DNA from: Haloarcula rara
Lineage (GTDB): Archaea; Halobacteriota; Halobacteria; Halobacteriales; Haloarculaceae
Assembly (NCBI RefSeq): GCF_029338235.1
Contig: NZ_CP119785.1
Span: forward strand, 744,001-808,000
Length of the DNA: 64,000 bases
Direction of reading: 5' to 3'
Part shown: positions 21,687-44,777 of the stretch, piece after piece
How positions within the stretch are numbered: position 1 is the stretch's first letter
Layout of the letters: every line of letters begins with the position of its first letter
Notes under the pieces: model-generated
What the model saw: the letters and a program-made list of their open reading frames with translations, nothing else
The model's database searches: none
What the model was told of the DNA's origin: nothing
Made by a program: the position numbers and the translations under genes

Positions 21687-21795
21687 ACACCTTTTAATCC
21701 TCCATGACACAGGCCGAATTCGCAGCTCTGCGGCGAGTTTGAATTTTGCCGGAGGAAGGCGACGGCAGGCTCGGCAGAGCGTTGCGCTGACGGTG

Positions 21796-21824: not shown

Positions 21825-23279
21825 TCAGTAGCTCTTCGCGAAGTAGGCGGTCTTTTCTGCGTCCTCACCGCAGATAGCACACTCGTCGTGGACCGGCTCC
21901 TCGTCGCGGGAAAGGGGAACCATCACGATTTCGGCGGCGATGGCCTCCTTGATGGGGTCTTCACAGTCCTCGTCGCCACACCAGCCACACTTGACGTAGC
22001 CGCCGTGCTGGCCGATGGTACCCAGAATCTCCTCGCGGGAGTCGGCCTCGCGGATTTCGCCTTCCAGCGTCTCCTCGGCGCTGGCGTACAGTTTGGCGTG
22101 GACGGTGTCGAGGTGCTCTGAAACGGTGTCGCCGATATCCTCGCGGTCGACGGTCTCGCTCTCGCCGTCGGGGCGGTGGACCAGCGTCGCCTCGTCGTCT
22201 TCGACCTCGTGGGGCCCGACCTCGATGCGCAGGGGAACGCCGTTGAGCTCGTGTTCGTTGTACTTGAAGCCGGGGTTGTAGTGGTCGCGGTCGTCGAGTT
22301 CGACGCGGACACCCGCGTCCTCGAGGGAAACGGCGAGGTCGGCGGCGTATTCCTGGACCTCCGCTTTGGTGTCTTCCTGCCAAATGGGGACGATGACCAC
22401 CTGTGTCGGCGCGACGGCAGGCGGCAGGACGAGCCCCTGGTCGTCGGAGTGGGTCATGATGAGCGCGCCCATCGCGCGCCAGGACAGGCCCCAGGAGGTC
22501 GTGTGGGCGACGTTGTCCTCCTCGTTCTCGTCGGCGTAGGTGATGTCGAACGCCTCGGCGAAGGAGGTGCCCAGATAGTGGGAGGTCCCGCCCTGGACGG
22601 ACTTGCCGTCGGGCATCAGCGCCTCGACAGTCGTCGTCGTGTGGGCGCCGGGGAACTTGTCGTGCTCGGGCTTGCGCCCCTCCATCACGGGCATCGCCAT
22701 GACCTCCTCGTAGAGGCGCTTGTACTGTTCGAGACGGGTCATCGTCTCGTCCCACGCGCCGTCCTCGTCTTCGTGGGCGGTGTGTCCCTCTTGCCAGAGG
22801 AACTCCTTGGTACGGAAGAACGGCTTCGTCTCGGTGGCCTCCCACCGGACGACCGAACACCACTGGTTCAGCCGCAGCGGGAGGTCACGGTGCGAGCGGG
22901 TCCAGTCGGCCATGAACGGCGCGATGATGGACTCGCTGGTCGGGCGTACTGCGAGCCGTTCCTCCAGTTCGTCGTGGCCGCCGTGAGTGACCCACGCGAC
23001 CTCCGGGTCGAACCCTTCGACGATGTCTTTCTCCCGTTCGAGGAAGCTCTCGGGGATGAACATCGGGAAGTAGCTGTTCTGGACGCCGGTCTCTTTGAAC
23101 CAGCCGTCCAGATGGTTCTGGATGCGCTCCCAGACCGCGTAGCCGCGCGGTTTCGTGACGATAAAGCCGCCCATGGGGGCGTAGTCCGCGAGGCCGGCCT
23201 TCTGGACGACCTCGGCGTACCACTCGCCGGGTGAATGCTCCTTGCTCTCCGTGATACCGAGTTCCTGCTCGCCACTCAT
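21825..23279 (-). CDS. proS: Prolyl-tRNA synthetase, archaeal/eukaryotic type
   Basis: 484 residues, class IIa, attaching proline to tRNA-Pro. Catalytic motifs are visible: the FPMFIPESFL motif 1 region, RPTSESIIAPFMADWTRSHRDLP (motif 2 lead-in, read across residues 115-140), RTKEFLWQEGHTA, and motif 3 GLSWRAMGALIMTHSD. An anticodon-binding domain follows, then a zinc domain with KCGWCGDEDCEDP and CAICGEDAEK, and the family-typical C-terminal Tyr in AKSY. MSGEQELG is taken as the start; nine in-frame residues upstream are unlikely. Confidence 0.96.
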   Translation of the reverse strand: MSGEQELGITESKEHSPGEWYAEVVQKAGLADYAPMGGFIVTKPRGYAVWERIQNHLDGWFKETGVQNSYFPMFIPESFLEREKDIVEGFDPEVAWVTHGGHDELEERLAVRPTSESIIAPFMADWTRSHRDLPLRLNQWCSVVRWEATETKPFFRTKEFLWQEGHTAHEDEDGAWDETMTRLEQYKRLYEEVMAMPVMEGRKPEHDKFPGAHTTTTVEALMPDGKSVQGGTSHYLGTSFAEAFDITYADENEEDNVAHTTSWGLSWRAMGALIMTHSDDQGLVLPPAVAPTQVVIVPIWQEDTKAEVQEYAADLAVSLEDAGVRVELDDRDHYNPGFKYNEHELNGVPLRIEVGPHEVEDDEATLVHRPDGESETVDREDIGDTVSEHLDTVHAKLYASAEETLEGEIREADSREEILGTIGQHGGYVKCGWCGDEDCEDPIKEAIAAEIVMVPLSRDEEPVHDECAICGEDAEKTAYFAKSY

Positions 23280-23327
23280 TATCGGAGGGTGGCCCACACA
23301 GCACATAAACTCCCCGAAGGGGTCGCG

Positions 23328-42285: not shown

Positions 42286-42720
42286 CTAGTCGCTGCTCAC
42301 TTCGGCCTCGACGTCGATGAGCCCGCAGACGTCGTCCTCGGCGTTGAAGCAGTCGGGACACTGGGGTGCGCGGTCGATGATGGTATCGAGGCGTTCGGCG
42401 ACGGTCTCGTCGATGACGCCCTCCAGGGTCTTGGCCTCTGTCCGAAAGTCCTCGACCTCCAGCACTTCGATGAGAAAGCGCTCGATGATACAGTAGTTCT
42501 GTAAAGCGTCCCGTGCCTGTTCGATGCCCTCGTCGGTGAGGTCGACGCCCTTGTACTTCTCGTGGTCGAGCAGTCCGCGGTCTTCGAGTTTGCCGATCAT
42601 CTCGTTGGCGCTGGCGGGGCTGACATCGAGGAGGTTCGCCACGTCGCCGGTCGATGCGGGGCCGTCGGCCTGTTGCTGGGTGAGATAAATCGCTTTCAGA
42701 TACTGAGCCTGCGTGTTCAT
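42286..42720 (-). CDS. Metal-dependent DtxR/SirR-type repressor
   Basis: 144 residues. The winged helix (YLKAIYLTQQQADGPASTGD, then LDVSPASANEMIGKLEDRG) is followed by the dimerisation and metal domain with ALQNYCIIERFLIEVLEVED. A C-terminal CPDC and Cys pair (CPDCFNAEDDVCGLID) suggest an added zinc or iron site. In haloarchaea these proteins control iron or manganese genes. It overlaps the end of the ferritin-like gene by 4 nt (ATGA), so the two are translated together. Confidence 0.9.
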   Translation of the reverse strand: MNTQAQYLKAIYLTQQQADGPASTGDVANLLDVSPASANEMIGKLEDRGLLDHEKYKGVDLTDEGIEQARDALQNYCIIERFLIEVLEVEDFRTEAKTLEGVIDETVAERLDTIIDRAPQCPDCFNAEDDVCGLIDVEAEVSSD

Positions 42721-43199
42721 AGTCGAGCCTCCATGAGTTCGGTCACGTCTTCGACGCCCTCGGCTTCTTCCTCGCGGATGAGTCGCAGCGTCTCCAGCAG
42801 CCGGGTCCGGTCGACGCTGAACGACGTCTCGGACGCCTCGATAGATTCGATGAGGTCGTCGTAGAACTTGTAGGCCGTCTCCTCGTTACAGAGCTGGTCG
42901 TACAGCACCCCGTCGAAGTCCTCGTCGGCCTCGTACTGGGCCTCGACGAGCGTCTGAATCTCCTCGAAGGGAACGGTGTCGGCGTCGAGGTCGGCTAGAA
43001 GTTCCTCTAGCTGCCGGCGGTGCTGTGCCGACTCCGCCGACGCGTCTTCCAGCAGCCTGGCGAGGTCGGCGTCGGCAGCGTCATCTGTCTCTGCCGCGTG
43101 TTTGCCGGCCCGGGCCTCGACGACCTCTTCGAGGACGATACCGATCTGGAGCAACCGGGCCAGTTGGTGGTCCGACACAACCGGCTGTGTCAGGCTCAC
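42717..43199 (-). CDS. Ferritin-like helical protein
   Basis: 160 residues, four long acidic helices with Glu and His placed as in ferritin-like carriers (LQIGIVLEEVVEARAGKHAA, then HRRQLEELLADLD and a CNEETAYKFYDDLIES helix). The GTG at 43199 is chosen because GGGAGGTG stands 6 nt upstream; the longer open frame would include the Shine-Dalgarno site. The 4-nt overlap with the SirR-type repressor makes an iron-storage and sensing pair likely. The upstream side is the hairpin array. Confidence 0.75.
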   Translation of the reverse strand: MSLTQPVVSDHQLARLLQIGIVLEEVVEARAGKHAAETDDAADADLARLLEDASAESAQHRRQLEELLADLDADTVPFEEIQTLVEAQYEADEDFDGVLYDQLCNEETAYKFYDDLIESIEASETSFSVDRTRLLETLRLIREEEAEGVEDVTELMEARL

Positions 43200-43223
43200 G
43201 TCGACACCTCCCGGCGACACGAT

Positions 43224-43241: not shown

Positions 43242-43315
43242 CGGGGAGGGCGGAACTTAAGCGGTTCCCTGTCCGGGCCGCGTCGGCGAAGAAAGCAGCA
43301 GACGAGCCTCCCCTC

Positions 43316-43577
43316 GTGACGCTAACGCGTCACTCGCGGGTCGTTCCTCCCCGCTCGAAAATCGAGGTCGCTACGCGACCTCGCTACTCGCGGAGACGCC
43401 GTGAGAGCTCTGCTCTCACGTGCTTGCGTTCATAGCCCTACGGGCTATTCACGCAACCGCCGTGGAATCACAGATTCCACGAGCCTTCGTTCGTAACCCT
43501 ACGGGTTACTCACGAAGACGCCGCGGGAGCAAAGCTCCCGCGAGCCTGCGAGAGTAATCGTCCGATTACTCTCGCAG
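43316..43577. repeat. Tandem array of structured 61-bp hairpin units beside sufD
   Basis: Three exact 61-bp units occupy 43400-43460, 43461-43521 and 43522-43581 (the last one base short). Each holds a 21-bp hairpin with 9-bp arms and a 3-nt loop (arms CGTGAGAGC, CGTGGAATC, CGCGGGAGC), a 3-nt spacer (TGC, AGC, AGC), a 33-nt hairpin with arms of 15 (loop TAC twice; the last has 14-bp arms), and a 4-nt spacer (CCGC, ACGC, ACGC). Stem bases differ but pairing is kept. A partial unit with a 21-bp hairpin at 43363-43383 and a 7-bp hairpin at 43316-43333 lie further on. The final hairpin overlaps the sufD stop. Confidence 0.9.
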
Positions 43578-44777
43578 ACGCTCGTAAATCAGCTGGTCGA
43601 GGTCCTCGCGGAGTTCGTCGACCGCGACCTCTTCCAGCACCGGGACGAAGAAGCCTTCGACGAGCATATTCTTCGCCTTCTCGGGGTGGACACCGCGGGA
43701 GGTCATGTAGAACATGTCCTCGGCGTCGACCTGACCCACCGTCGCGGAGTGGGAGGCCTCGGTGTCGTGGTTGTTGATGATGAGCTTCGGGGATGCGTCG
43801 GCCTCGGATTCGTCCGAGAGCATGAGGGTGTTCTCACGCTGGTAGGAGCTGGTGTCCCACGCCTCTGTGCCGACGTCCTGGACGCCCTCGTACACCGAGC
43901 GGGCCTCGTCGTCGAGGACGCCGCGGGTGACGAGGTCGGCGACGGTGTGTTCGGCCTCGTGCCAGACACGCGCGGCGATGTCGACGTGCTGGTCGTCGTG
44001 GCCGAAGAACGCGCCGACGATCTGGGACTCCGAGGAGTCACCGAGCAGGCGCGTCTCCACGCTGGACTTGGTCAGGCGGGAGCCGATGTTGCCCTCGATC
44101 CAGTCGATACTGCCGTAGGTGTCGGCGTGGCCGCGCTTGACCTGGTAGTTGTAGCTCTCCTCCGAGAGGTTCTGGAGGGTGCCGTACTGGACGTAGGCGT
44201 TCTCGCCTGCGACGGCTTCGACGACGCCGGAGTAGTACTGGTCGCCCTCGGTGTCTTCGCCGGTGGTCTGGCGCTCCAGGATGGTGACCGACGAGGACTC
44301 CTCGGCGACGACGAGCGTGTAGTTGAACAGCGACCGGCTGTTCATCGTCGTCCGAATCTTCACGTCCTCGGCGTCGACGCCCTCGGGGACGTAGACGACC
44401 GTCCCAGCGGAGAACAGCGCCGTCGACAGCGCCGTCAGGTAGTCCCGCTCGGTGTCCACGACGGAGCCGAAGTGGTCCTCAATGAGCTCGCCATGCTCGT
44501 CTAGCGCGTCTGACCAGGAGAGGACGTCGACGCCCTCGGCGTCGATTCGGTCCTTGTCCTGGGCGTAGTCGAGCGGGTCGACGAGCGTCTCGTAGTCGAG
44601 CGCGTCGAGGTTGGTCCACTTGCGGCCCGGCGTCTGGATGACGTCTGGCATCTCGAGGTCGTCCAGGGCCGCGAGCGCGTCCTTGCGCGTCTCCAGCAGC
44701 CACTCGGGCTCCCCGAGGTCTTCGGATATCTGTTCGACTGCGTCTTCGCTGAGTGTAGCGTGTACCTGCGTACTCAT
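43566..44777 (-). CDS. sufD: Fe-S assembly scaffold protein SufD
   Basis: 403 residues, right-handed beta-helix typical of SufB/SufD. Conserved phrases are VYVPEGVDAEDVKIRTTMN and SHSATVGQVDAEDMFYM near the C-terminal core (HSATVGQVD carries the SufD/SufB active-site His). It forms the SufBC2D complex that builds iron-sulfur clusters. The gene starts 2 nt after sufB stops, and the last gene of the sufCBD run ends in the hairpin array at 43546-43577. Confidence 0.95.
   Translation of the reverse strand: MSTQVHATLSEDAVEQISEDLGEPEWLLETRKDALAALDDLEMPDVIQTPGRKWTNLDALDYETLVDPLDYAQDKDRIDAEGVDVLSWSDALDEHGELIEDHFGSVVDTERDYLTALSTALFSAGTVVYVPEGVDAEDVKIRTTMNSRSLFNYTLVVAEESSSVTILERQTTGEDTEGDQYYSGVVEAVAGENAYVQYGTLQNLSEESYNYQVKRGHADTYGSIDWIEGNIGSRLTKSSVETRLLGDSSESQIVGAFFGHDDQHVDIAARVWHEAEHTVADLVTRGVLDDEARSVYEGVQDVGTEAWDTSSYQRENTLMLSDESEADASPKLIINNHDTEASHSATVGQVDAEDMFYMTSRGVHPEKAKNMLVEGFFVPVLEEVAVDELREDLDQLIYERLRE

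Follow-up and report, generated by a model that had tools for sequence, protein, structure and literature searches.

Two super-families of bacterial REP elements have been published. The GTAG REPs and BIMEs, which are associated with TnpA-REP (RAYT), are imperfect, strand-specific hairpins whose stem contains a conserved mismatch, and they form tandem mosaics; in E. coli, TnpA-REP depends on that mismatch, its activity being abolished by mutations that restore a regular stem (PMC8266576). The CGTC-tagged REPs, including RPE-4 and RPE-6 of Rickettsia (Di Nocera et al. 2013, PMC3733652, where no archaeal members are named), carry a 5' CGTC/TGTC tag before a single stem of 8-9 bp with A-T as the first two pairs, a loop of 4-5 nt and a CCA-like tail. 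They are present in many copies between genes and in ORFs, often near 3' ends, and have no dedicated transposase. In haloarchaea, the PATEs and SMRs of Haloquadratum are transposase-free and palindromic; the near-terminal palindromes of PATEs are related to IS605-type elements and are hit inside by small mobile repeats (PMC3119063).

A two-hairpin DNA repeat behind the sufD gene of Haloarcula rara appears to be an archaeal equivalent of the REP elements known from bacteria. It has in common with the GTAG REPs the strand-specific imperfect hairpins, the conserved in-stem mismatch and the tandem mosaics, with the CGTC-tagged REPs the tag before the hairpin, the high copy number, the intergenic and in-ORF positions often near 3' ends and the lack of a dedicated transposase, and with the PATEs and SMRs the haloarchaeal host, the palindromic, transposase-free form and small repeats inserted into palindromes. 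However, its 5' end reads NGTCY with no GTAG tag, and no flanking solitary Y1 transposase was found; unlike the CGTC-tagged REPs it has two stems, a GA/GA mismatch, a GNA loop and a CGGY end; the CGTC/TGTC tag is present in a majority of 90 copies only, and the stem, loop and tail differ. PATEs resemble IS605 ends whereas the two-hairpin unit does not flank Y1 genes, a distinction drawn from the description of PATEs rather than from their sequence. Since some tested defining features of each REP super-family were not shared, the unit was regarded as a REP-like new variant rather than a member of either. The original prediction knew of no family with this architecture, and indeed no earlier description was found in the open-access papers searched. 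By analogy with these systems, the sufD array is probably the product of tandem amplification, at this locus, of a REP-like element that occurs throughout the haloarchaeal order and moves as folded single-stranded DNA.

The array behind sufD

The window (the whole stretch of 64,000 nucleotides that was analysed) contained the following features.

43566..44777, minus strand: sufD, 403 aa, C-terminus RLRE*; Pfam SUFBD_core (6e-70) and SufBD_N
Upstream of sufD: sufB and an ABC ATPase gene (sufC-like)
43566-43580: sufD end within the array, CGTCTGCGAGAGTAA; the final codons and stop are one arm of the array's first hairpin
43520..43583, minus strand: unit 1, sufD-proximal, model R1 80.7 bits, E 3e-16; stem B 43546-43577 (perfect palindrome, GA/GA lost), stem A 43522-43542
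43459..43523, minus strand: unit 2, R1 83.9 bits, R2 63 bits, E 1.4e-13; stem B 43485-43517 with GA/GA and GTA loop, stem A 43461-43481
43398..43462, minus strand: unit 3, R1 80.1 bits, R2 35 bits; stem B 43424-43456 with GA/GA and GTA loop, stem A 43400-43420
43303..43398, minus strand: unit 4, read from the sequence as stem B only (CTCCGCGAGT ... GACGCGTTAGCGTCACGAGGGGAGGCTCG), no stem A, split by an insertion
43332..43385, minus strand: 54-bp insert, AGCGAGGTCGC...GACCCGCGAGT, within stem B of unit 4
42717..43220, minus strand: downstream gene, 167 aa, without Pfam match
21740..21794, plus strand: second, more degenerate copy in the window, R2 32.2 bits, E 4.6e-6

The array lies on the strand of sufD. 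Read along the minus strand from sufD, B and A stems alternate, with GGCT between stem B and stem A and CGGCGT between stem A and the next stem B. The end of sufD reads CGT CTG CGA GAG TAA (R L R E stop), with the first stem B beginning inside the gene. The 61-bp tandem units that were originally predicted were recovered as exact direct repeats at 43383, 43444 and 43505, with the proposed layout of a 9-3-9 hairpin (stem A), a 3-nt spacer, a long hairpin (stem B) and a 4-nt spacer. Between the first two long hairpins in forward order, units 3 and 2, all four left-arm differences were matched on the right arm, and the TC/TC mismatch, which is GA/GA on the minus strand, was kept in both, as had been proposed. 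Beyond these claims, the third long hairpin, stem B of unit 1, was found to be a perfect palindrome with 15/15 pairs, and thus the TC/TC mismatch of the other two long hairpins is absent there. In addition, the third repeat contains the sufD stop codon, there is a fourth, split unit (R1 scores 29.8 bits at 43277-43346), and the repeat is not local. Folding of the array was much stronger than that of dinucleotide shuffles (z = -11.6 for DNA and -11.7 for RNA), which together with the covariation of sister units given below shows that the pattern is not a product of chance. In the Rfam search of the window tRNA alone was matched, and the repeat fitted no curated covariance model.

The 54-bp insert is flanked by the 8-bp direct repeat ACTCGCGG (43332-43339 and 43386-43393) and resembles the Haloquadratum small mobile repeats that target PATE palindromes. 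In several sister genomes, B modules carried similar inserts behind their GAGT, and a related one was present in the dispersed copy L125. The insert (AGCGAGGTCGC...CCCGCGAGT) is itself two-hairpin, and was repeatedly seen after GAGT in stem B in the window, at sister sufD loci and in L125. In several sister genomes, though not in every one, the next gene after the array was a homologue of the 167-aa gene.

The sufD gene was found in 30 of 32 genomes of the genus, the named records of these loci being Haloarcula and Halomicroarcula. About two thirds of the genus carried hairpins of the same grammar behind sufD and about one third had no array; an array was also present in Halorientalis salina. 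The RLRE* C-terminus occurs in Halococcus and others without arrays as well, and is older than the arrays. Most arrays differed in their string of hairpins, with the strings drawn from a common repertoire. In 22 sufD-array units from sister genomes, 94% of the pair cells were paired, double changes were found at 17/22 pairs, and the covariation score was 0.494 compared with 0.186 after shuffling and at most 0.145 after sliding. At the G010 sufD locus (L026), the array was partly inverted relative to sufD, with the linkers AGACGCC and GAGCC.

A two-hairpin family in haloarchaeal genomes

A strict pattern search had suggested that B modules were unique to sufD, which was overturned by model searches that found dispersed copies. 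The sufD hairpins are members of a dispersed, apparently undescribed two-hairpin DNA repeat family. The unit is about 55 bp long and strand-specific, with two covarying hairpins and fixed linkers, in the order [N]GTCY, stem B (unpaired GA/GA inside, GNA loop), GGCT, stem A and CGGY. Matches to R1, weaker than the array, were dispersed in every genome of the genus, and their sequences gave the consensus NGTCYNNNN-GA-GC-GNA-GC-GA-NNNNRGGCTCG-stem A-CGGY and model R2; R2 was trained mainly on dispersed copies, yet unit 2 of the sufD array was among them. The covariance-model search of haloarchaeal genomes that had been proposed returned matches in all but four of the 116 genomes of Halobacteriales (112, from 42 of 44 genera), compared with none in about 99 genomes from elsewhere in the phylum. 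As lower bounds, with 49 candidates per genome scored, 61 of the 116 genomes had at least 10 copies, and the maximum was at least about 50. Tandem or clustered copies read at other loci had a spacing of 70-136 bp. Of the predicted 61-bp architecture, the two-hairpin unit was found order-wide, whereas the exact 61-bp lattice was found only behind sufD.

Among 90 distinct copies, 97.6% of pair cells were paired, 16 of 17 pairs were doubly changed and covariation was 0.540, versus 0.162 shuffled and at most 0.106 slid. This alignment was fitted to R2, so the independent weight lies with the earlier free alignments. Together with the 22 sufD units, the result gave strong genome-wide support to the idea that structure is kept more than sequence. 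The two sides of the unpaired GA/GA, placed after pair 6, were kept in 89/90 and 88/90 copies, the first stem-B pair was C-G in 82/90, and the 3' end was CGGY. The loop was mostly 3-nt, with GNA in 58/90, and the 5' tag was CGT in 51, GGT in 14, TGT in 11 and AGT in 6. C followed GAG (GAGC) in 86/90 dispersed copies, while T followed GAG/GAA in all 22 units of the sufD alignment A1 (AATT in one). Nearly all internal B modules of sufD arrays kept GA(G/A)T and a stop-like triplet that is absent from dispersed copies, as would be expected if the arrays grew in tandem from a copy that had been joined to the sufD stop.

Alternatively, the hairpins could be terminator, processing or stability structures of the 3' UTR, with RNA folding keeping the arms paired. 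The array is on the sense strand directly 3' of sufD and is very stable as an RNA fold, and in Haloferax hairpins lie upstream of many 3' ends, one tested hairpin having terminated 59% of transcripts (PMC7237163). However, copies were located both between genes and in frame within genes, and in both orientations to the neighbouring gene (the in-gene antisense copy L242; the window copy at 21740-21794, 30 bp past the 3' end of the minus-strand, prolyl-tRNA synthetase-like ORF 21825-23306). The absence of an array behind sufD in a third of the genus also speaks against an RNA role, as does the favoured GNA loop, which is notable for DNA: GNA/GNNA loops on G-C pairs form extraordinarily stable DNA minihairpins (PMC4686876). 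G-U outnumbered A-C by 19 to 5 in one count of sufD-locus units and by 20 to 12 in the 90 copies (p = 0.22), so the latter showed no strand asymmetry while the former leaves room for an RNA contribution. An RNA element was judged unlikely.

Strain variation and candidate movers

In the kae1-bud32 gene (TsaD domain), an in-frame copy of about 57 nt was present in 6 of 30 genomes of one genus and a shorter version in a seventh, while the other 23 had a clean empty site; the site was filled in G000 and empty in its closest sister G021. Homologous exchange between strains could contribute to this difference. In the kae1 copies, 12-16 of 16 pairs were Watson-Crick. G-U and unpaired intermediates also occurred, and all copies kept GA/GA, a pattern consistent with drift after insertion.

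At sufD, G000 and G021 (sufD 96.6% identical) shared an identical stem A of unit 1 and stem B of unit 2, and other hairpins were entirely different. G001 and G007 (96.3%) had the same hairpin string with a handful of single changes, of which some broke pairing and one restored it. G003 carried an array and G023 (96.2%) did not. These comparisons indicated that the coupling of arms belongs to the comparison of copy with copy, not to short-term substitutions within one copy.

They also bear on template switching, in which one arm of each palindrome is copied onto the other and compensated changes arise without selection. A few features fit occasional events of this kind: in stem B of unit 1 the mismatch has been converted, leaving a perfect palindrome, and the 2-nt loop is GA in G000 and TC in G021, and two G010 units (L119/L121) are identical except for a stem-A loop that is exactly reverse-complemented (AACTCCGTT / AACGGAGTT). 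As the main driver, which the original prediction had offered as one possibility, arm-from-arm correction was not upheld. Such copying would erase GA/GA, which survives in 88-89 of 90 copies, and the kae1 copies retain unpaired and G-U intermediates. The prediction had itself named independently drifting arms as the observation that would speak against it, and single uncompensated arm changes were found in G001/G007; with the arms drifting singly in that pair and hairpins replaced whole in G000/G021, pairwise arm correction was regarded as very improbable as the main driver.

The preferred reading, a REP-like element, rests on a set of features that in combination are of the REP type: the hairpin is imperfect and strand-specific, its stem covaries freely around a conserved mismatch, a tag stands at the 5' end, and the copies are dispersed and also inserted within genes. 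A nuclease or transposase would recognise the unit in the form of a folded single DNA strand and move it as such, and may read the mismatch and the 5' GTC tag. Copies with broken stems would leave the spreading pool, and structure would thereby outlive sequence. At sufD, one copy may have been joined to the stop codon and then multiplied in tandem, with units afterwards exchanged, lost and replaced.

The units might instead derive from IS200/IS605 elements, either as their ends or as remnants reduced to the termini, much as PATEs are, and be moved by the TnpA of that family. The IS605-related palindromes of Haloquadratum PATEs, invaded by small repeats as stem B of unit 4 is by the 54-bp insert, agree with this, as does the best dispersed copy of G000, 314 bp upstream of its sole Y1 match. 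However, a unit was near only 1 of 30 Y1 loci, the neighbourhood being absent from the other 29, and unit number was independent of Y1 presence (p = 0.22, 116 genomes): Y1 was absent in 45 of the 116 genomes, 11 of which carry at least 30 units. An origin from IS200/IS605 ends was therefore considered very improbable. A REP-RAYT pair, first suggested by the same G000 gene, was rejected on the same grounds. No dedicated transposase was found: the units are not flanked by Y1 genes, nor does unit number follow the presence of such genes, and movement as single-stranded DNA is thus a step that we infer. More tentatively, and with less confidence than an even chance would warrant, the units may be archaea-specific miniature single-stranded-DNA transposons of nearly every haloarchaeon, recognised by the invariant tandem GA mismatch and the minihairpin loop, moved by neither TnpA-REP nor an IS200 Y1 enzyme, and adding in-frame peptides to conserved genes.

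Significance and further repeats

A structured mobile repeat seems to be spread through the genomes of haloarchaea. The family offers a large natural alignment, in which the features of a DNA hairpin that are kept (mismatch, loop, tag) can be told from those that are merely paired. What moves transposase-less REPs becomes a testable question in the genetically tractable Haloferax or Haloarcula. The repeat may also account for some variable, low-complexity linkers of haloarchaeal proteins.

Other repeats were seen at the loci that were read. In G000 and G021 (L249, L252, L255-L257, L260, L261, L264, L291), another multi-hairpin repeat, GTCGTTCGAAAG..CTTTCGTGATCACGAGAGAGC..GCTCTCTCGGACGAC, was often near GGGGCTTTCTGGCTGT or CCCCTTTCAGTCCC, and its arms apparently vary in a compensated manner too. 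A related-looking in-frame element within protein genes (L253, L283, L285, L288, L292), consisting of GGGGGTGAGC, a hairpin, GCGAGCCTCGTC, a hairpin and GACGGYGG, encodes acidic Gly/Ser-rich linkers. G010 also contained a longer repeat, AGTACCTTTTTG...CAAAAATCTACGCTAAAAAGGCCG, in several copies (L119, L121, L126); these directly follow the stops of genes that appear to differ, with the two-hairpin unit lying downstream of them.
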